A stretch of 53,766 nt of DNA. It comes from Actinomycetes bacterium (GTDB lineage Bacteria; Actinomycetota; CALGFH01). A program made the translations under genes and the position numbers. The DNA is taken from positions 1 through 53,766 of the forward strand of contig DASYUT010000197.1 in assembly GCA_036000965.1 (NCBI GenBank). Direction: 5' to 3'. The notes beneath the pieces are model-generated. The model was not told the DNA's origin, did no database searches, and saw nothing but the letters and a program-made list of their open reading frames with translations. Of this stretch, positions 7,551 through 52,620 are shown piece by piece; positions within the stretch are counted from its first letter, which is position 1, and each line of letters begins with the position of its first letter.

Positions 7551-9314
<1,764 letters not shown>

Positions 9315-11853: not shown

Positions 11854-13098
11854 GTGACCGCTGGACCCATGCCGTCCTTGACCGCCGACGCCGCCGACCA
11901 GTGGCTGCTGCGGTTCAGATCGACCCTGGTCGCCATCCTCGGGGCCATCGTGGCCGGCATCGCGTGCCTGGCCTTCTACACGAGCTTCGAGGCCATCCGG
12001 GCGTATGCCACGCGCTCGGCCGGGATCGCGCCCGAGCACGGCTGGGCGATCCCGCTCCTGGTCGACTCGTTCATCATCGTGGCGACCGGCGCCGACCTGT
12101 GGTTCGTCACCACCGCCAGGCAGCGCAAGTGGTGGGAGATCATCTGGCCGAAGCTGCTGCTGTTCGGCGCCGCCCTGGTCAGCTTCATCCTCAACGTCGC
12201 CCACGCCGACCACAACTGGGCCGCCCGGGGCGTCGCGGCCATCCCCCCGGCCGCCCTGGTGCTCGGCGTGGAGCTGCTCATGATGGTCTTGCGCCGCGCC
12301 ACCGCCCTGCGCGCCATGCGCCTGCACGAGGAGGCCATGGAGTTCCAGGCCGCGCTGGCCGGGCAGCTCGCGGTCGCCCAGGCGCCTGCGCCGGCGCCGG
12401 CCGCCCTCGAGGCTGGCGGTCCCGCGCCGGCCCCCCCTGAGGAGCACATCGCGGCCAGCATCGAGCGGGACGTCCAGCCGTCCGCGCCCCACACCGCCCC
12501 GCCCGACACCGCCCCCGCCGGCGCCAGCCCGGCCGGGTCGGCCAGCCCGCGGCGGCTCGAGCGCCCGAGCGAGATCCGCCGGCGGGCGACCCTGGTGGTC
12601 GACGCGGGCAGCGAGCTGGCCCCGCGCACGGCCGCACCGCTGGCCTCGGTCGGCTCGCCCCTGGGCGAGGTGCGCCCGAGCGCGACCAGGCGGAACGCCA
12701 GCCGGGTCCCGGCCCCGTACCTGGAGGCGTCGCGCATCATCGACGAGCGCGAGGATGCCGCCACGCTCACGCCGGAGGGCCTGGTCGAGGCGCTGGCCGC
12801 CGAGGGCGTCGTCGTCGACCTGCGCACCGCCCGCGGCCTGCTCCGGGAGCTCCGCCCGGCCGTGACCGCGCTGCAGTCGCTGCAGCGGCCCAGCAGGGTC
12901 AGCCCGAGCGGCGCGAGCAGCCCGGCCTCGACCCATCCGGCCGGTACCGCCAATGCCGCGCCGGCCCAGCCCGGCAAGGGCACCGGCAAGGCCGCGCCCG
13001 CGGAGGCCAGCCGCGACCGGGCCGAGGGCAACGGCGGCCAGGGCAACGGCGGCCGGCCCATCGGGCTCGTGCAGGCCCCCAAGGGCTCGACCCGCTGA
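11854..13098 (+). CDS. DUF2637 (SpdB-like) membrane protein
   Basis: A 414-residue protein with four predicted membrane helices in the first ~150 residues (e.g. LVAILGAIVAGIACLAFY, LLVDSFIIVATGADLWFV, KLLLFGAALVSFILNV, AALVLGVELLMMVL), the pattern of DUF2637. A long proline/alanine-rich linker follows, then a short helical unit around LTPEGLVEALAAEGVVVD and RTARGLLRELRP resembling a winged-helix fragment, then a glycine-rich tail. DUF2637 proteins are typical of actinomycete conjugative plasmids and integrated elements (spread protein SpdB), yet no rep, tra or int gene is nearby. GTG 11854 has GGGGGAG upstream; ATG 11869 is an alternative. Confidence 0.8.
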   Translation: MTAGPMPSLTADAADQWLLRFRSTLVAILGAIVAGIACLAFYTSFEAIRAYATRSAGIAPEHGWAIPLLVDSFIIVATGADLWFVTTARQRKWWEIIWPKLLLFGAALVSFILNVAHADHNWAARGVAAIPPAALVLGVELLMMVLRRATALRAMRLHEEAMEFQAALAGQLAVAQAPAPAPAALEAGGPAPAPPEEHIAASIERDVQPSAPHTAPPDTAPAGASPAGSASPRRLERPSEIRRRATLVVDAGSELAPRTAAPLASVGSPLGEVRPSATRRNASRVPAPYLEASRIIDEREDAATLTPEGLVEALAAEGVVVDLRTARGLLRELRPAVTALQSLQRPSRVSPSGASSPASTHPAGTANAAPAQPGKGTGKAAPAEASRDRAEGNGGQGNGGRPIGLVQAPKGSTR

Positions 13099-16035: not shown

Positions 16036-16276
16036 ACCGCCAGGCCTGCTCGAGCCCCCGGCCTCCCGCTCCGAACGCCTGCCCGGCCCCGGTCCCCGGC
16101 CCTGCAGGGGGCGCCTGCCCGGGCCCTCGGTCAGGGCGCCGGCTGCCACTTGGCGGCGCTGGTTCCTGGCCGGCGGCCGGGCCTCGGGGCAACACACGGG
16201 TAGCCAGGTCCTTGACCGGCCAGGAGGGGACAGGCCAGGGGCCGGGCCCTGATCGGCACGCGCCGGTGGCCGGGCC

Positions 16277-16340: not shown

Positions 16341-18197
16341 ATGCCGACAACGGATGTCTCTGCCGTACGCGCCTCGATCGACGCCGCCATCGACGGTCGG
16401 ACGCTCTGCGACATCCTGCTCCGCAACGCCGAGGAGCGGGGCAGCGAGCCAGCGCTGGCCTGGAAGGAAGGGGATGCCTGGCGGCGGCTGTCGTGGGCCG
16501 ACTACCGGCAGCAGGTCGCCGAGGTCGCCATGGGGCTGGCGGCCCTCGGCGTCGGTCGCGGGGACTTCGTCGCCATCATGGCCCGCAACCGGCCCGAGCA
16601 CCTGATCGCCGACCTCGGCGCCGTCCACGCCGGCGCCACCCCGGTGTCGCTGTACAACACGCTCGCCCCCGAGCAGGTCGCCTACATCGTGGCCCACTGC
16701 GAGGCGAAGGTGGCCGTCGTCGAGGACAAGGGCTTCCTCGAGCGCTTCGAGAAGGTGCGCGACCAGCTCCCCAGCCTCGAGCGGGTCGTGCTCGTGGCCG
16801 ACGGCGCCGCCGACAACGACTGGGTGCTCTCCTGGGAGCGCCTGCGGGCGATCGGCCGGGACGCCCTGGCCGCCGACCGGGATGTGTTCGAGGCGAGCTG
16901 GAAGCAGGTCAAGCCGGAGGACCCGGCCACGCTGATCTACACGTCGGGCACGACCGGCCCGCCCAAGGGCGTCGTCATCACCCACCGCAACGCGCTGTGG
17001 ACGGCCGCGTCGGTGGAGCGGAACTTGGCCGAGCCGGTCGTCCCGGGCACGCCATACCTCTCCTACCTGCCGCTCGCGCACAGCTTCGAGCGGCTCACGG
17101 GGCACTACGTCTGCCTGTGGAGCGCCCAGCAGGTGCACTTCTGCCCGGAGATCCTCGAGGTCATGAAGTACCTCCCCGAGGTCCGGCCGGTCGTGTTCGT
17201 GGCCGTCCCCCGGCTCTGGGAGAAGGCCCACGCCGGCGTGGCCGCAGCGCTGGCCGCCGAGCCCGACGAGCGCAGGCGCAAGCTCGTCGCCCGCGCCCTC
17301 GAGGTCGGCCGCAAGGCCGTCCGCCTCGAGCAGGAAGGCAAGCCCGTGCCCGCCGGCCTGCGGCTGCAGCGCGCCCTGTTCGACCGTCTGGTGTTCGCCA
17401 AGATCCGCGCCAAGCTCGGCCTGGACAACTGCCGCGCGGCGGTCAGCGGGGCCGCGCCCATCTCCGGCGAGGTCCTCGAGTTCTTCCTGGCCCTCGGCCT
17501 GCCCATCGCCGAGGGGTACGGGCTGACCGAGAACACCGCCGGCGCCACCCTCAACCCAGTCGGCCAGACCAGGGTCGGCACGGTCGGCAGGCCCCTGCCC
17601 GGCGTCGAGATCCGCCTGGCCGACGACGGCGAGATCCTGATCCGCGGCGGCAACGTGACCGCCGGCTACTACAAGGAAAAGGACAAGACCGCCGAGACCT
17701 TCGACGCCGACGGCTGGCTGCACACCGGCGACGTCGGCAGCATCGACCCCGACGGCTTCATCCGGGTCGTGGACCGCAAGAAGGAGCTGATCGTCACCGC
17801 CGGCGGCAAGAACATCTCGCCCGCCAACCTCGAGACCCTGCTCAAGCGCCACCCGCTGGTCGGCCAGGCCTGCGCGATCGGCGACCGCAGGCCGTTCGTG
17901 TCCGCCCTCGTCGTGCTCGACCCCGAGGTCGCGCCCGCCTGGGCCAAGCAGCACGACCTGCCCTCGGTCAGCGTCGAGTACCTCGCCAAGGACGAGCGCG
18001 TCGTGGCCGAGGTCAAGCGCGCCGTCGACGACGCCAACGAGCACGTCTCGCAGGTCGAGCAGGTCAAGAAGTTCGTCATCCTGCCGGCCGAGTGGACCCC
18101 GGCCAGCGAGGAGCTGACCCCCACCCTCAAGCTCAAGCGGCGCGTCATCCTGGAGAAGTACGCGGCTGAGATCGAGTCGATCTACAGGCCGGCCTGA
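16341..18197 (+). CDS. Long-chain fatty acyl-CoA synthetase (FadD15-like)
   Basis: A 618-residue adenylate-forming enzyme that makes acyl-CoA from fatty acid, ATP and CoA. The AMP-binding loop YTSGTTGPPKGV lies at residues 200-211; GYGLTENTAG (A5), GWLHTGDVG (A7) and VDRKKELIVTAGGKNISP (A8) follow in order. Length and the SYLPLAHSFER string match the long-chain group, including mycobacterial FadD15. ATG 16341 has GGAAGAGG upstream. The 3' end overlaps the convergent repeat-protein gene by 16 bp. With dodecin and the acyl-CoA dehydrogenases it suggests fatty-acid or isoprenoid side-chain oxidation. Confidence 0.94.
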   Translation: MPTTDVSAVRASIDAAIDGRTLCDILLRNAEERGSEPALAWKEGDAWRRLSWADYRQQVAEVAMGLAALGVGRGDFVAIMARNRPEHLIADLGAVHAGATPVSLYNTLAPEQVAYIVAHCEAKVAVVEDKGFLERFEKVRDQLPSLERVVLVADGAADNDWVLSWERLRAIGRDALAADRDVFEASWKQVKPEDPATLIYTSGTTGPPKGVVITHRNALWTAASVERNLAEPVVPGTPYLSYLPLAHSFERLTGHYVCLWSAQQVHFCPEILEVMKYLPEVRPVVFVAVPRLWEKAHAGVAAALAAEPDERRRKLVARALEVGRKAVRLEQEGKPVPAGLRLQRALFDRLVFAKIRAKLGLDNCRAAVSGAAPISGEVLEFFLALGLPIAEGYGLTENTAGATLNPVGQTRVGTVGRPLPGVEIRLADDGEILIRGGNVTAGYYKEKDKTAETFDADGWLHTGDVGSIDPDGFIRVVDRKKELIVTAGGKNISPANLETLLKRHPLVGQACAIGDRRPFVSALVVLDPEVAPAWAKQHDLPSVSVEYLAKDERVVAEVKRAVDDANEHVSQVEQVKKFVILPAEWTPASEELTPTLKLKRRVILEKYAAEIESIYRPA

Positions 18198-18934
18198 CGG
18201 TCGGGCCTGGCGGTCACGTCCGGAAACGCGTCGTAGGCGAGGACCAGGCATACCAGCCCGGCGCCGGTGTCCACCATGCGGGTGGCGCGCACGCTGCCGC
18301 CCGGGCCGACCGGCCCCTCCGCCGCGACGAGCAGCGCGGCCCCGACGAACAGCCCGGTGCGGAACCACGGGTCCCAGGTCGCGCGCACGTCGGTGACCGG
18401 CGTCGGCTGGGAGGGCAGGGAAGTGGCGAGCCGCGCCAGGTCCCGGGCGACCGCTTCGGCCGCCGGGTCGCCGGCACGCTCGTCGAAGAACCAGCCCAGC
18501 TCGGCCAGGCCCTCGTCGAGCAGCACCATGAACGCCCCGGCGGCCTGGAACCCGTTGGCCACCTTGCTCAACGTCACCGAGACCTGCCCGTACAGCCGCG
18601 CCGTCTCCAGCCGCGACAGGTTGGCCATGGTCCACTCCATGATCGGCCAGCTGTCGGAGATCCGCAGGGCAGCGAAGGCCTGGTCGGCGAGCTGGGCGCT
18701 GCGCAGCCGGGACAGGTTCGCGAACACCCGCTCAAACAGCATGGCCGGGTCGATCCGGGCCAGGTTGGCGAACACCTGGTCGTAGAGCTGCCCGGTGTCC
18801 ACCTGGTACAGGTCGGCGGTCAGCCGCTTGATCGTCGCCGTCCGGTCGGCCGCGGTGGCCCGCGGGGCGCCGCCCCCGCCGGACCGCTCGCCGCCCTGGC
18901 CGAAGGCCCTGCCGTTGAACGAGTGCACGCTCAC
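18182..18934 (-). CDS. Unrecognised protein with six 16-residue repeats
   Basis: I do not recognise the family. From GTG 18934 the product has 250 residues: a glycine-rich N-terminus, then six contiguous 16-residue units (residues 34-129) with a consensus near L-x-x-Q-V-F-A-N-L-S-R-L-x-x-A-x (for example LFERVFANLSRLRSAQ and LYDQVFANLARIDPAM). Each unit looks like one amphipathic helix. The C-terminal ~120 residues include WFRTGLFVGAALLVAAEG and GAGLVCLVLAYDAF, which might be buried or membrane-associated strands. No signal peptide. It is divergent from a phage-type amidase gene and overlaps the fadD-like stop. The Shine-Dalgarno site is weak, so the exact start is uncertain. Confidence 0.7.
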   Translation of the reverse strand: MSVHSFNGRAFGQGGERSGGGGAPRATAADRTATIKRLTADLYQVDTGQLYDQVFANLARIDPAMLFERVFANLSRLRSAQLADQAFAALRISDSWPIMEWTMANLSRLETARLYGQVSVTLSKVANGFQAAGAFMVLLDEGLAELGWFFDERAGDPAAEAVARDLARLATSLPSQPTPVTDVRATWDPWFRTGLFVGAALLVAAEGPVGPGGSVRATRMVDTGAGLVCLVLAYDAFPDVTARPDRQAGL

Positions 18935-18982
18935 GTGGGGAAGCCGCCTTTGGAGGGGCGTTGGGCCTTGTGGGCCGAGCCG

Positions 18983-19052
18983 ACGGGGGTGGCCGGAGCT
19001 CTGGGACGGGGGGGTGGGCGGAGCTATGGACGGGGGGTGGCCAGAGCTATGG
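18983..19052. repeat. Three imperfect ~24-bp tandem repeats
   Basis: Units of the form ACGGGGGGTGGCCAGAGCTATGG recur at about 18983, 19006 and 19030, with a fragment GGAGCTAT after. They fill part of the divergent gap between the repeat protein and the amidase and are followed by a short AT-rich patch (~19060-19120), the likely promoter zone. Confidence 0.75.
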
Positions 19053-19199
19053 GGGGAGCTATATGTTACCGACGCCGAACCCTGGTTCGTCAACATTGCC
19101 AACCTGAATTCCGCCCGCCCACCGGCGGCGGCAGTACCAGCACGCGTCGGGGCTGGGAATTGCGTTACCCTTGTGCGGGCAGTCGACGCGGACTGGGAC

Positions 19200-20159
19200 A
19201 TGATCGACTTCGCGAGGATCCTCGAGAGAGCGGGCCTGCCGGTCCGTGAGGTGAACGGGTGGCAGCGGCGCGGCCGCCCGCCCAGCACCAACCCGCGGGA
19301 CCCCGCCTACCCCGCCGCCACCAGGTTCGCCGGCATCGGCCTGCACCACACCGCCGGGCACAACGACCTCAACGTCGTGGTGAACGGCAGGCCGGGCATC
19401 CCCGGTCCGCTCGCCAACCTCTACGTGGCCAGGGACGGCAGGGTGTTCGTGGTCGCGGCCGGCCGGGCCAACCATTTCGGGGCGGGTGCGGTCGAGGTGT
19501 ATCGGCGCACCCTCAGGGACCTCGCCCCGCTCGGCGACGCGGCCGACGTCGGCCTCCGCGACTCCACCGTCGGCAACGGCGTCTACGTCGGCATCGAGGT
19601 CGAGAACTTCGGCACCGCCGGGGACCCCTACCCCCGGGTGCAGATCGACTCGCTGGAACGGGCGTGCGCGGCCCTGTGCGAGGAGATGGGCTGGACGGCC
19701 AACCGCTGCGTGCAGCACCGGGAATGGACCCGGCGCAAGGTCGACATGAGCTACCGGGGGCCCCTGCGCGAGGTCGTCGCCGCGCTGCTGGCAAAGGAGG
19801 AACTCATCTTGGACGCCGCCACCAAGGCCTACTTCGACAAGCAGTTCGAGCTGCTGCGGGTCGGGGACAACCCCGACCCTACGACCGGCGACACCCACCC
19901 CTTCAGCTTCGAGAACGTGCTGCGCCGCCTCGACCGCATCGAGGGCCAGCTCCACCTCATGTGGAAGGGGGACGAGCCGGAGCCGCCCCAGGGCGAGACC
20001 CACCCGCAGAACCTGGAGACCGTCTGGCAGCAGGGCAAGGCCACCGCCGCCGCCCTGCAGGCCCAGGAGGTCAACCTGGCCGCGATCAAGGACGACGTCG
20101 AGGCCATCAGGCGAGAGCTGGAGGTCATCAAGGTGGCCACCGGCGCCGGCCACTCCTGA
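19200..20159 (+). CDS. Phage-type N-acetylmuramoyl-L-alanine amidase with repeated C-terminal motif
   Basis: Residues ~40-200 are an Amidase_2/PGRP domain, which cuts the muramic acid-L-alanine bond of peptidoglycan. Metal-ligand region LHHTAGHND (H49, H50) and the C-terminal HREWTRRKVDMS (zinc histidine and catalytic lysine area) are present. Residues ~225-300 contain a duplicated motif: GDNPDPTTGDTHP and GDEPEPPQGETHP. A C-terminal coiled coil (LAAIKDDVEAIRRELEVIK) follows. There is no signal peptide, as in phage endolysins that need a holin; none is nearby. ATG 19200 has no clear Shine-Dalgarno site; GTG 19173 is an alternative. Probably a captured phage gene. Confidence 0.85.
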   Translation: MIDFARILERAGLPVREVNGWQRRGRPPSTNPRDPAYPAATRFAGIGLHHTAGHNDLNVVVNGRPGIPGPLANLYVARDGRVFVVAAGRANHFGAGAVEVYRRTLRDLAPLGDAADVGLRDSTVGNGVYVGIEVENFGTAGDPYPRVQIDSLERACAALCEEMGWTANRCVQHREWTRRKVDMSYRGPLREVVAALLAKEELILDAATKAYFDKQFELLRVGDNPDPTTGDTHPFSFENVLRRLDRIEGQLHLMWKGDEPEPPQGETHPQNLETVWQQGKATAAALQAQEVNLAAIKDDVEAIRRELEVIKVATGAGHS

Positions 20160-23397: not shown

Positions 23398-23532
23398 GGC
23401 CGGGGTTTCGCAGTACCGCCGGCCGGGTCCTCGCGGCGCCGCCGGCCGGGGTCTCGCAGTGCCGCCGGCCGGGGTCTCGCGGTACCGCCGGCCGGGGTCT
23501 GGCGGCGCCGCCGGCGGGTCTGGCGGTGCGGG
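23398..23532. repeat. 23-bp tandem array, about six copies
   Basis: Five complete contiguous 23-bp units and a shortened sixth: 23398, 23421, 23444, 23467, 23490 and 23513. Consensus begins GGCCGGGGTCTCGC and ends CCGCC; most variation is at positions 12-18 of the unit. There are no spacers, so it is not a CRISPR array. Confidence 0.95.
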
Positions 23533-24634: not shown

Positions 24635-26032
24635 ATGGACCGCCTGAGCCCGCAGGACGCCTCGTTCCTCCACATCGAGGACGACGTCAACCACATGCAT
24701 ATCGGCTCGGTGGCGATCTTCGAGGGTCCAAGCCCGGCCTATGCCGACGTGGAGCGGATGGTGGCCGGCAAGCTGCCGCTCGCCCCGCGCTACCGCCAGC
24801 GGGTGCGGACGGTGCCGTTCGCCGTCGGGCGGCCGGTCTGGTCCGACGACGTCCACTTCCGGCTCGGCTACCACCTGAGGCACACCGCCCTGCCGCAGCC
24901 CGGCGGCCGCGAGCAGCTCCGCAACCTGGTCGGCCGCGTCATGTCCCAGCAGCTCGACCGGACCAAGCCGCTCTGGGAGCTGTGGGTCGTCGAAGGCCTC
25001 GAGGACGGCCACTGGGCCCTGTTCACCAAGGCGCACCACTGCATGGTCGACGGCATCGCCGGCACCGACCTGCTCACCGTGCTGCTCGACGACACCCCGG
25101 AGCCGTCGCCGGCCGTGCCCGACACGTGGCGGCCCGTGCCCGAGCCGTCCAGCCTGCGCCTGGCCGGGGAGGCCGTCATCGACTACCTGGCCAGCCCCTA
25201 CGAGCAGTGGCGGGCGGCCCGGGCCGTGACCGGGGCGCCTCTGCGCCTGGCCCGGCTGCTGGCCGACACCGCCCGCGGCCTGGCCACCGTGCCCGGCCTG
25301 GTGCGCGTGGCGCCCGGCTCCTCGCTGGCCGGGCCGATCGGCCCGCACCGTCGCTGGGGCTGGGCGGCGGCGACCCTCGACGACGTGCGGACGGTCCGCA
25401 CCGGGCTGGGCGGAACCGTCAACGACGTGGTCCTGGCAGCCGTCACCCGTGGGTTGCGGGACCTCTTGCTCGCCCACGGCGACACCCCCGAGGGCGCGGT
25501 GGTCCGATCCCTGGTCCCGGTGTCGGTGCGCCGCCCGGGGGAGCGGGGCAGCTACAACAACCGGGTCTCGGCGATGGTCGCCGAGCTGCCTGTCGGGGTC
25601 GCCGACCCGGCCGAGCGGCTGGCCGCGGTCCGGCGCCAGATGGACGGGCTCAAGCAGTCGAGGCAGGCGGTGGCGGCCGAGACGCTGACGTCGCTGTCCG
25701 GGTTCGCCCCGCCGCTGCTGCTGGCGCTCGGCGCCCGCGTCGCCATCAGGGCCCTCGGCCGCTTCGGGCAGGGCAGCGTCAACACCGTCACCACCAACGT
25801 GCCCGGCCCCCAGCACCCCCTGTACGCGCTCGGCCGGCGCCTGGTCGAGGCGTGCCCGTACGTGCCGCTGGCCAGCCCCATGCGGGTCGGCGTGGCGGTC
25901 TTCTCCTACGACGGCCGGCTCACGTTCGGCGTCACCGCCGACTACGACAGCGTCCCCGACGTCGAGGTCGTCTGCCAGGGCATCGAGGCCGGCCTCGCCG
26001 AGCTGGTCAAGCTTGCGGTAGTAACAGGGTAG
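24635..26032 (+). CDS. Wax ester synthase/diacylglycerol O-acyltransferase
   Basis: Joins acyl-CoA to a fatty alcohol or diacylglycerol, making storage lipid. The 465-residue protein has the catalytic HHxxxDG motif (H134, H135, D139 in KAHHCMVDGIAG), the N-terminal LSPQDASFLHIED, and the C-terminal TNVPGPQHPLY typical of the family. ATG 24635 follows GGAGGAGG (24622-24629). With the adjacent hydrolase and the acyl-CoA enzymes upstream it points to triacylglycerol or wax storage, common in soil actinobacteria. Confidence 0.95.
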   Translation: MDRLSPQDASFLHIEDDVNHMHIGSVAIFEGPSPAYADVERMVAGKLPLAPRYRQRVRTVPFAVGRPVWSDDVHFRLGYHLRHTALPQPGGREQLRNLVGRVMSQQLDRTKPLWELWVVEGLEDGHWALFTKAHHCMVDGIAGTDLLTVLLDDTPEPSPAVPDTWRPVPEPSSLRLAGEAVIDYLASPYEQWRAARAVTGAPLRLARLLADTARGLATVPGLVRVAPGSSLAGPIGPHRRWGWAAATLDDVRTVRTGLGGTVNDVVLAAVTRGLRDLLLAHGDTPEGAVVRSLVPVSVRRPGERGSYNNRVSAMVAELPVGVADPAERLAAVRRQMDGLKQSRQAVAAETLTSLSGFAPPLLLALGARVAIRALGRFGQGSVNTVTTNVPGPQHPLYALGRRLVEACPYVPLASPMRVGVAVFSYDGRLTFGVTADYDSVPDVEVVCQGIEAGLAELVKLAVVTG

Positions 26033-41989: not shown

Positions 41990-42077
41990 CCGTGCCCGGC
42001 ACCGGCAGCGCGACCAACCGGCACGAGCCGGCGGATCCCACCCCCGCCGGCTCGTGCCCACCCATGTCCGGGGAGGC

Positions 42078-42083
42078 CATACT
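42078..42083 (+). promoter_or_regulatory. -10 element of the AAA-LuxR gene (leaderless)
   Basis: CATACT, then 7 nt, then ATG 42091, which has no Shine-Dalgarno site at useful distance. The same CATACT hexamer precedes the hemolysin-III gene. Confidence 0.5.
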
Positions 42084-42090
42084 GGACGGC

Positions 42091-45000
42091 ATGAGCGGCC
42101 GCTTCTCCTGCCCGACGTTCATCGGGCGCACGCGCGAGCTCGCCCACCTCGACGAGGCGCTCGAGCGGGCGGGCGCGGGGATCCCGGTCGTGCTGGCGGT
42201 CGGCGGCGAGGCCGGCGTCGGCAAGACCCGCCTGGTGGACGAGCTGGTCGGCCGGGCCAGGAGGGCCGGCGCGGCCGTGCTCACCGGCGGCTGCATCGGT
42301 CTCGGGGAGGAAGGCGTGCCCTTCGCCCCGGTGGTGGAGGCGCTGCGCACCATGCTGCGGACCACCGAGCCCGACGCGGTCGAGCGCTGGTTCGCCCACG
42401 CCCGGGTCGAGCTGGCCCGGCTGCTGCCTGAGCTGGGCCCCGCCCGTCCGGTCGACGACCCGCGCGAGCTCGACCTCGCCAGCGGCCAGGGCCGCCTGTT
42501 CGAGCTGCTGCTCGGCGTGCTCGAGCGGCTCGCCGCCCAGCGGCCGGCCGTGCTGGTCGTCGAGGACCTGCACTGGGCCGACCACTCCACCCGAGCCCTG
42601 CTGGCGTTCCTGATCCGCAACCTGCGCCAGGGGCGGCTGCTGCTGGTGCTCACCTACCGGACCGACGAGCTGCACCGCCGCCACCCGCTGCGGCCGTTCC
42701 TGGCCGAGCTGGACCGGAGCTGGTGGGTCGAGCGGCTGGAGCTGCAACGGTTCGAGCGGTCCGAGCTGGTCGCCCAGGTGGCCGGGATCCTCGGCCGGCA
42801 GCCAGAGGCCGAGCTGGTCGACGAGCTGTTCGCCCGCGGCCAGGGCAACGCCTTCTTCACCGAGGAGCTGCTCGCCGCCGCCTGCGGCGTGGCCGGGGAG
42901 CTGCCGCCGACGCTGCGCGACACCCTGATGGCCCGCATCGAGCTGCTGCCCGACCGCACCCAGCACGTGCTGCGGGTCGCGTCCGCCGCCGCCCGGGAGG
43001 TCGAGCACCGGCTGCTGGCCGCGGTGGCCGGCCTGGCCGAGCCGGAGCTGTTCGAGGCGCTCCGCGAGGCGGTCTCCTCCCACGTGCTGGTGGTCGACAA
43101 CGCCGACGAGACCTACGCCTTCCGGCACGCGCTGGTGCAGGAGGCGGTCTACGGCGACCTGCTGCCGGGCGAGCGGAGCCGGCTGCACGCCGCCTTCGCG
43201 GCCCGGCTCGACGCGCTGCCGAGCCGCGGCGACAGCTGCCACGACGCCACCATCGCGGCCGAGCTCGCCCACCACTGGTACGCCGCCCACGACCTGGAGC
43301 GGGCCCTGCCCGCCGCGGTCACCGCGGGCCTGGCCGCCGAGCGCGTCCACGCCAACGCCGAGGCCAGGCGCCAGTTCGAGCGTGCCCTGGAGCTGTGGGA
43401 GCGGGTGCCCGCCGTGCACGGCACGCTCGCGCTCGACCGGGCCAAGCTGCTCTGGCACGCCGGCGAGGCGGCCTACCGGACCGGCGAGCAGGACCGGGCC
43501 ATCGCGCTGCTGCGGGCCGCGATCGACGCCGCCGACCCGGCCGCCGACCCGCTCCGGGCCGGTGTGATCACCTCCCGCCTGGGCCACTTCCTGCGCAACG
43601 CCGGCAAGGAAGGCGCGTTCGCGACCCTCAAAGAGGCGGTCCGGCTCGTCCCGCCCGACCCGCCCACGCCCGAGCGGGCCCAGGTGCTGGCAGCCCTGGG
43701 CCAGGCGCTCATGCTCAAGCCGCTCTGGGAGGAGTCCCGGGCCGTCTGCGAGGAGGCGATCGCGATCGCGCGCTCGGTGGGCGACCGGGCCGTCGAGGTC
43801 CATGCCATGGACACCCTCGGGGTGGTGCTCGCCCACCTCGGCGACACCCAGACCGGCCTCGCCCACCTCCGGGAGGCGCGGCGGGTCGCCATGTCGCTCC
43901 ACGACGACGAGCAGCACCCGGTCGACGAGGCCGTGCGCGCCTACGCCAACCTCACCGACGTCCTCGACCTGGTCGGTGACCTCGAGCAGGCGGCGGCGAC
44001 CGCCCTGGAAGGCGTCGAGGTCGCCCGCGAGCACGGCCTCGAGCGCGCCATCTGCGCCCACCTGGTCGCCGACGCCGCCAGCGCGCTGGCCAAGCTCGGC
44101 CGCTGGGACGAGGCCGACCGCCACCTGCGGGCCAGCCTGGACGTCAACGTCTCCGGGCACAACGCGAGCCTGCTCCACCTCACCCGGGCCGCGCTGGAGC
44201 TGCGCCGGGGGCACTTCGAGCCCGCCCTCGAGCACCTCGGCACCGCCCGGCGCCTGTTCGGCCGCACCCACGCGGGCGCCCAGATCACCGGCCCGATCTT
44301 CCAGGGGCTGGCCGAGACCGCGGTCTGGCAGGGGCGCCACGACGACGCGCGGGCGGCGGTGGCCGAGGGCCTGTCGCTCACCCTGGCCGTGGACGGGTGG
44401 CGGCACGCGCGCCCGCTCTACCCGGTCGGCCTGGCGGCCGAGGCGGACCGGGCCGACCGGGCCCGGGCCCGGCGGGCCGCCGCCGAGGCCGAGGACGCCC
44501 GCCGGGTCGCCGCCGGCCTGCTGGAGGGCGCCCGCACGCTGCCCGGCGGGACCAGCGCGGAGGCCGACGCGCTGCTGGCCACCTGCGAGGCGGAGTGGAC
44601 CCGGGTCGAGGGCACCTCCGACCCGGGCCGCTGGCAGGCCGTTGCCGACGCCTGGGACAAGGCCATGCAGCCCTACCCGGGTGCGTACGCCCGCTGGCGG
44701 CTGGCCGAGGCGTTCCTCGGCGCGCGGCTGGACCGCGAGCAGGCCGAGCGGGCGGTCCGGGAGGCCCACGCCACCGCTGCCCGGCTCGGTGCCGCGCCGC
44801 TCCGCACCGAGGTCGAGCGGCTCGCCCGGCGCAGCCGGATCGACCTGGCGCCCAGGCCCGCCCGACCGGACCAGGCCGCCGCCGCCGAGCCCGACACCAC
44901 GGGCCTGGCCGGCGAGCTCGGCCTGACCCCGCGCGAGCTGGAGGTGCTCCAGCTGGTCGCCGACGGCCGCAGCAACAGCCAGATCGCCGAGGCGCTGTTC

Positions 45001-45126
45001 ATCAGCGCCAAGACGGCCAGCGTCCACGTGTCCAACATCCTGGCCAAGCTGGGCGTGGCGAGCCGGGTCGAGGCGGCCGCGGTCGCCCACCGCCTGGCCC
45101 TGTTCGACGAGCCGGCCGGACGCTGA
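42091..45126 (+). CDS. Large AAA-ATPase LuxR-family (LAL-type) regulator
   Basis: 1011 residues from ATG 42091. N-terminal AAA module: Walker A GEAGVGKT (residues 39-46) and Walker [12 protein letters not shown]. The central ~600 residues are TPR-like helical repeats (e.g. [30 protein letters not shown]). The last ~65 residues are a LuxR helix-turn-helix, [20 protein letters not shown] then [20 protein letters not shown]. Such regulators bind a small ligand or protein and activate transcription. The frame is open far upstream, but start 42091 gives the normal FIGRTREL start and fits the -10. An 18-bp duplication spans its stop. Confidence 0.93.
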
Positions 45127-52446: not shown

Positions 52447-52620
52447 GTCGTCAGCGAGGCCCCGTCGCGGGTGGTCCGCGTCGCGCGAATGGTCAGCGGG
52501 CCCGTCGCGAGTGGTCCGCGTCGCGAGTGGTCGGGAAGGTGCGTCGCGAGTGGTCAGCGAGGCCTCGTCGCGAGTGGTCGGCCTGGCCCGTGGCGGAGTC
52601 GTCAGCGAGGCCGCGTGGCG
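52445..52620. repeat. Degenerate tandem array between lutC and tetR
   Basis: About eight head-to-tail units of 16-25 bp with a consensus close to AGTGGTCAGCGAGGCCCGTC and a GCG end, starting at the lutC stop and running to the tetR 3' end. These two genes are convergent, so the array fills the whole gap. Confidence 0.9.

Follow-up and report, generated by a model that had tools for sequence, protein, structure and literature searches.

Genomic organization of the locus

The window analyzed here is a stretch of 53,766 nucleotides from an actinobacterium-like, deep-branching and GC-rich genome whose class is poorly known. Within it, a gene encoding a protein with a core of six short repeats (hereafter, the repeat protein; Table 1) runs tail to tail into an acyl-CoA ligase gene (16341–18197), with a 16 bp overlap, and diverges on its other side from a gene for an Amidase_2 protein. 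A codon-usage model trained on the other genes of the window selects precisely positions 18182–18934 for the repeat protein. The GC fractions at codon positions 1/2/3 are 0.72/0.53/0.97, compared with 0.72/0.45/0.97 in the adjoining acyl-CoA ligase, and the antisense frame shows an un-gene-like pattern by the same measure. The neighbor, noted in the preliminary description of this DNA as a phage-type amidase in head-to-head arrangement, was confirmed as such an amidase by its PF01510 and phrog_880 matches. The region between the two genes contains no sigma-70-like promoter match, and its three direct repeats are GC-rich (GGGGGTGGCCGGAGCTCTGGGACGG and variants); they could be regulatory or derived from slippage.

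Table 1 Features of the repeat protein gene and its divergent neighbor, in window coordinates
Feature	Position	Strand	Basis
Repeat protein gene (P0001), 250 aa, GTG start	18182..18934	-	ORF and codon usage
N-terminal 33 residues, Gly/Ala-rich, probably disordered	18836..18934	-	Sequence; AF2 pLDDT
Six 16-residue units, residues 34–129	18548..18835	-	Lag analysis and per-unit test
Unit 1, TIKRLTADLYQVDTGQ (divergent)	18788..18835	-	Per-unit shuffle p=0.00025
Unit 2, LYDQVFANLARIDPAM	18740..18787	-	Per-unit shuffle p <5e-5
Unit 3, LFERVFANLSRLRSAQ	18692..18739	-	Per-unit shuffle p <5e-5
Unit 4, LADQAFAALRISDSWP (divergent)	18644..18691	-	Per-unit shuffle p=0.0054
Unit 5, IMEWTMANLSRLETAR	18596..18643	-	Per-unit shuffle p <5e-5
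Unit 6, LYGQVSVTLSKVANGF (divergent)	18548..18595	-	Per-unit shuffle p=0.0002
Residues 130–172, predicted pair of longer helices (123–151, 157–172)	18419..18547	-	AF2 single-sequence, pLDDT 64–81 mostly
Residues 183–250, predicted helices 183–204 and 215–235, polar tail	18185..18388	-	AF2 and hydropathy
Intergenic region, repeat gene to amidase; three 25-nt direct repeats at 18985–19057	18935..19199	.	Divergent genes
Amidase_2 protein, phage-endolysin type, divergent neighbor	19200..20159	+	Pfam PF01510 E 2.4e-15; phrog_880 E 9e-33

The surroundings are rich in lipid-metabolism genes. According to a Pfam scan of the window proteins, positions 7551–30680 encode four acyl-CoA dehydrogenase-type proteins, an acyl-CoA ligase, SDRs, an alpha/beta hydrolase, a wax ester synthase/DGAT (WS/DGAT, 24635–26032) and a patatin. 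The scanned proteins are chromosomal in kind, including those for heme synthesis and an aldolase, and the amidase alone looks phage-like. A tandem array with a 23-bp unit in about five copies lies between an SDR and a hydrolase (23398–23529), and arrays of about 24, 40 and 47 bp occur toward the window's right-hand end (52448–52620). Elsewhere we observed a 409-residue DUF2637 protein (11869–13098), with no other mobile genes recognized nearby, and a large regulator of 1020 residues (42064–45126) with AAA_16, TPR and LuxR-type DNA-binding domains; the DUF2637 domain occurs in actinobacterial transfer elements. An 89-nt tRNA-Glu(ctc) called by ARAGORN at 16095–16183 is probably a false positive, as Rfam yielded no tRNA at its gathering threshold.

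Six gapless units maintained as protein

The self-similarity of residues 34–129, scored with BLOSUM62, peaked at lags of 16, 32 and 48 only (z 7.8, 8.2 and 6.2); lag 5 rose weakly (z 2.4), and no further lag exceeded z 2. Over the whole protein, 16 was the best of the lags from 10 to 45, scoring 73 against a maximum of 49 among 5000 shuffles (0/5000 match). We then scored every unit in register against the remaining units and compared the result with shuffles. All six units fitted, whereas the adjoining 16-residue flanks were out of register both before (p 0.55) and after (p 0.30) the units, so that six is the right number and the phase given in Table 1 the right one. Lag analysis and per-unit test thus agree with the preliminary division of residues 34–129 into six gapless 16-residue units. 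The consensus proposed with it, L..QVFANLSRL..A, describes units 2, 3 and 5 well but not units 1, 4 and 6, which are strongly diverged and match most of the other units at 2–5 residues. A seventh unit at residues 158–173 was rejected as marginal (p 0.015), with unrelated amidase helices scoring nearly as high. An A/B alternation, corresponding to a 32-residue double unit, was also rejected; the alternating split ranked second of ten and was not significant.

Comparison of the units by codon position revealed that agreement among units 2, 3 and 5 reached 0.58 at first and 0.73 at second positions versus 0.26 expected, and 0.52 at third positions versus 0.48 expected (p 0.33). When the six units were taken together, third positions agreed at 0.56 versus 0.48 expected (p 0.03), slightly above chance. 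With the first two positions conserved and the third at or near chance, the repeat is old and has been kept as protein; its units are not recent DNA repeats. Because no homolog was found (see below), this comparison between units is the strongest sign of selection and translation at hand. It also bears on the alternative that the locus encodes no real protein and that its frame stays open by chance in GC-rich DNA. A homolog search that was empty everywhere would fit such a frame, and a GC content of about 75% makes open frames common. Against it stand the gene-like codon usage, the gene-like position-specific GC and the conservation of the repeat at the first two codon positions but not at the third, a pattern that would not arise in an untranslated frame, and we regard a chance frame as extremely improbable.

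Predicted fold and comparison with known repeat proteins

Averaged over the units, the hydrophobicity profile gave a moment maximum at 100 degrees and low values at 160–180 degrees (column shuffling, p about 0.02, two scales), with a hydrophobic stripe at unit positions 1, 2, 5, 6, 9 and 12. Individual units, each scored alone, were not significantly amphipathic. The amphipathic helices proposed earlier hold insofar as the repeats are probably helical and their averaged profile is amphipathic, but not at the level of single units; the helical state and the hydrophobic stripe are supported but not proved. A period of 16 is incompatible with a continuous helix of constant face (16 residues at 100 degrees leave a remainder of 160 degrees) and so fits one helix and one turn per unit.

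Two single-sequence AlphaFold2 (AF2) runs, one on the whole protein and one on residues 24–180, yielded mean pLDDT values of 53 and 42, with the repeat region mostly below 50. Both runs predict one helix of about 11–14 residues in each of units 2–5 (47–58/47–59, 63–74/63–76, 80–90 and 97–108/96–106). Unit 1 is mostly covered by a longer helix (residues 28–44), and unit 6 differs between the runs, appearing either as coil followed by a helix at 123–151 or within a helix at 112–131. Over residues 1–20 the pLDDT is 25–32, and the first helix begins not before residue 28. At such low pLDDT, the models lend support to predicted helix-turn units and to no arrangement of these units. A Foldseek search with the whole-protein model against the PDB and viral models returned no match at E ≤ 0.001, as expected for a model of this low confidence. 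Beyond the repeat, the weakly hydrophobic segments of residues 183–250 reach a 19-residue Kyte–Doolittle maximum of 1.33, below the cut-off of 1.6 usually applied to a membrane span.

Alpha-solenoids of the TPR, HEAT, ARM, ankyrin and TALE-like families are likewise built of helix-turn units arranged in tandem, with a stripe of hydrophobic residues. Ankyrin, TPR and TALE repeats comprise 33–34 residues, and two of the present units comprise 32; the alpha-solenoid families differ from the repeat protein, which has one helix per 16-residue unit, and none of these known families gave a Pfam match with either the natural protein (E ≤ 10) or a tandem consensus. A tandem period of 16 residues is shared with the bacterial ice nucleation proteins, which are beta-solenoids with outward-facing Thr/Tyr arrays (PMC9418140), whereas the repeat protein displays helical periodicity and no Thr/Tyr motif. 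A beta-solenoid was rejected on the basis of the moment profile described above, with its maximum at 100 degrees and its low values at 160–180, and of the helices predicted by AF2. The recurring ANLSRL of the units resembles the A(N/D)LXX motif of pentapeptide-repeat proteins; this assignment was likewise rejected, with no 5-residue register across the units (lag 5, z 2.4) and no Pfam match.

The units could also belong to a helical bundle or an oligomerizing coiled-coil-like domain, in which the repeat would be a trace of origin and not a functional array. Such a fold would accommodate the strong divergence of units 1, 4 and 6, as well as the uncertainty of the single-sequence models, but the absence of a 7- or 11-residue period and a register kept gaplessly by all six units argue against it, and we judge it distinctly unlikely.

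A possible role at lipid surfaces

The neighboring lipid genes suggest a lipid-surface role for the repeat protein, and this is the main rival to the explanation that we prefer, although we consider it unlikely. The protein would act on lipid inclusions or membranes, with its amphipathic helices lying flat against the surface of a neutral-lipid droplet or a membrane and its hydrophobic C-terminal helices serving as an anchor, in the service of the lipid genes. The position of the gene among acyl-CoA dehydrogenases, the tail-to-tail acyl-CoA ligase, WS/DGAT and patatin is consistent with this role, as is the amphipathic averaged profile of the units. Lipid-inclusion surface proteins (mycobacterial, phasins, apolipoprotein-like) likewise combine repeated amphipathic helices with a lipid-metabolism neighborhood. 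Of the candidate lipid-inclusion proteins of mycobacteria, about 56% were predicted to contain amphipathic helices, for which a function in targeting has been proposed; since roughly half of the candidates lack one, the feature is weakly diagnostic (PMC10699116). Lipid-inclusion surface proteins further differ in their period of 11 or 22 residues, compared with 16 and short capped helices here, and gave no sequence match. An apolipoprotein-like or perilipin-like 11- or 22-residue period is absent, the only lags above z 2 being 5 (weak), 16, 32 and 48, and repeats of 7, 11 and 22 residues are ruled out by the 16-residue period. In addition, the predicted helices are short and interrupted and carry little charge, the repeat gene shares no transcription unit with the lipid genes, and the C-terminal segments fall under the usual transmembrane cut-off.

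Search for relatives of the repeat protein and the amidase

We found no relative of the repeat protein in its own genome or in the two classmate genomes, which together make up the class of the source organism in the collection searched (three genomes). At the orthologous ligase loci of the classmates, we saw no conservation of gene order beyond the ligase at the DNA level and no diverged copy of the repeat gene. Searches of 396 genomes of the phylum, using both the natural protein and an artificial tandem consensus as queries, were also empty, as were those of four more samples drawn from other classes (39, 297, 66 and 198 genomes), which partly overlap the 396-genome sample. Two GTDB-wide contig scans and two IMG/VR scans, all sensitive to close relatives only, yielded no relative, and neither did tblastn against plasmids and against phages. 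The same genome search recovered the adjoining ligase at 39–56% identity and the amidase at 36–59%, and is thus able to detect moderately diverged proteins. Weak matches (E 0.001–0.1) were discarded: they were scattered and partial, several ran across stop codons, and those examined had no 16-residue period.

Profile and database searches gave a similar picture. The natural protein had no credible match in Pfam and NCBIfam scans up to E 10 or among PHROGs, PADLOC or PDB sequences; Mycobacteriophage_Gp67 and other Pfam matches were short, arose with the idealized tandem consensus and disappeared with the natural protein. As judged by these comparisons, the repeat protein is an orphan at the sensitivity used, and its initial classification as unrecognized holds across all of these libraries and Foldseek. 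Remote relatives may exist that are visible just to profile-profile or structure comparison. The preliminary description had also looked to homologs with a conserved unit length as a sign of a new family; none was found in any genome, phage, plasmid or IMG/VR search, and from a single sequence a new repeat family cannot be claimed.

The amidase is also absent from both classmates, and its relatives occur in actinophages as well as elsewhere in the phylum. The amidase relatives inspected, from genomes of the phylum and one viral contig, have no repeat-protein neighbor within flanks of about 1.5–4 kb. The expected co-occurrence of the two genes was thus not observed, and their head-to-head placement is best seen as adjacency only. 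Both the new family and the amidase link are left unsupported because their tests came out empty. The closest amidase relative (49% identity) lies on a short contig beside what reads as a fragment of a phage-type family A DNA polymerase.

A phage-derived lysis or wall-remodeling pair, in which the repeat protein would regulate or localize the amidase, would explain why the gene stands head-to-head with an Amidase_2 gene of phage-endolysin type and why neither gene is present in the two other genomes of the class. However, besides the amidase relatives that lack such a neighbor, the Pfam-scanned proteins of the window include no phage gene except the amidase, PHROGs and the phage tblastn were empty for the repeat protein, and the two genes are divergent and hence not one operon. 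We regard such a pair as quite improbable.

Discussion

The explanation that we favor, with about an even chance of being correct, is that the protein is an orphan whose helix-turn units form an array and serve as a scaffold for packing or binding. It would be a lineage-restricted protein, cytoplasmic or at the membrane surface, whose core goes back to a single 16-residue helix-turn element that was duplicated in tandem long ago. In each element, a helix of about 12 residues would lead into a tight turn that begins with an Asp/Ser/Thr/Pro-type cap. The analysis establishes the repeat with its unit number and phase, its maintenance at the amino-acid level and the lack of detectable relatives. 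We infer that the six elements stack via their hydrophobic stripe (positions 1, 2, 5, 6, 9 and 12) to give a small all-alpha array, followed by the longer C-terminal helices. The polar side (positions 3, 4, 8, 10 and 11) would probably be exposed as a binding or scaffolding surface. Several findings count against an array: a solenoid would be expected to have more than six divergent units, the AF2 models are of low confidence, Foldseek was empty, and unit 6 was modeled in two ways.

A broader proposal, which we consider doubtful, makes the repeat protein the first known case of a small class of alpha-repeats in which every 16-residue unit contributes one short helix to a minimal stacked solenoid; relatives of this bacterial class that have yet to be sampled would carry it too. 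As the orphan status is well supported but the fold is only predicted, the finding carries modest weight. If the units stack regularly, they would rank among the shortest helical repeat units in nature and be of use in the classification and design of repeat proteins, and the protein would exemplify the origin of a repeat protein inside a single narrow lineage.
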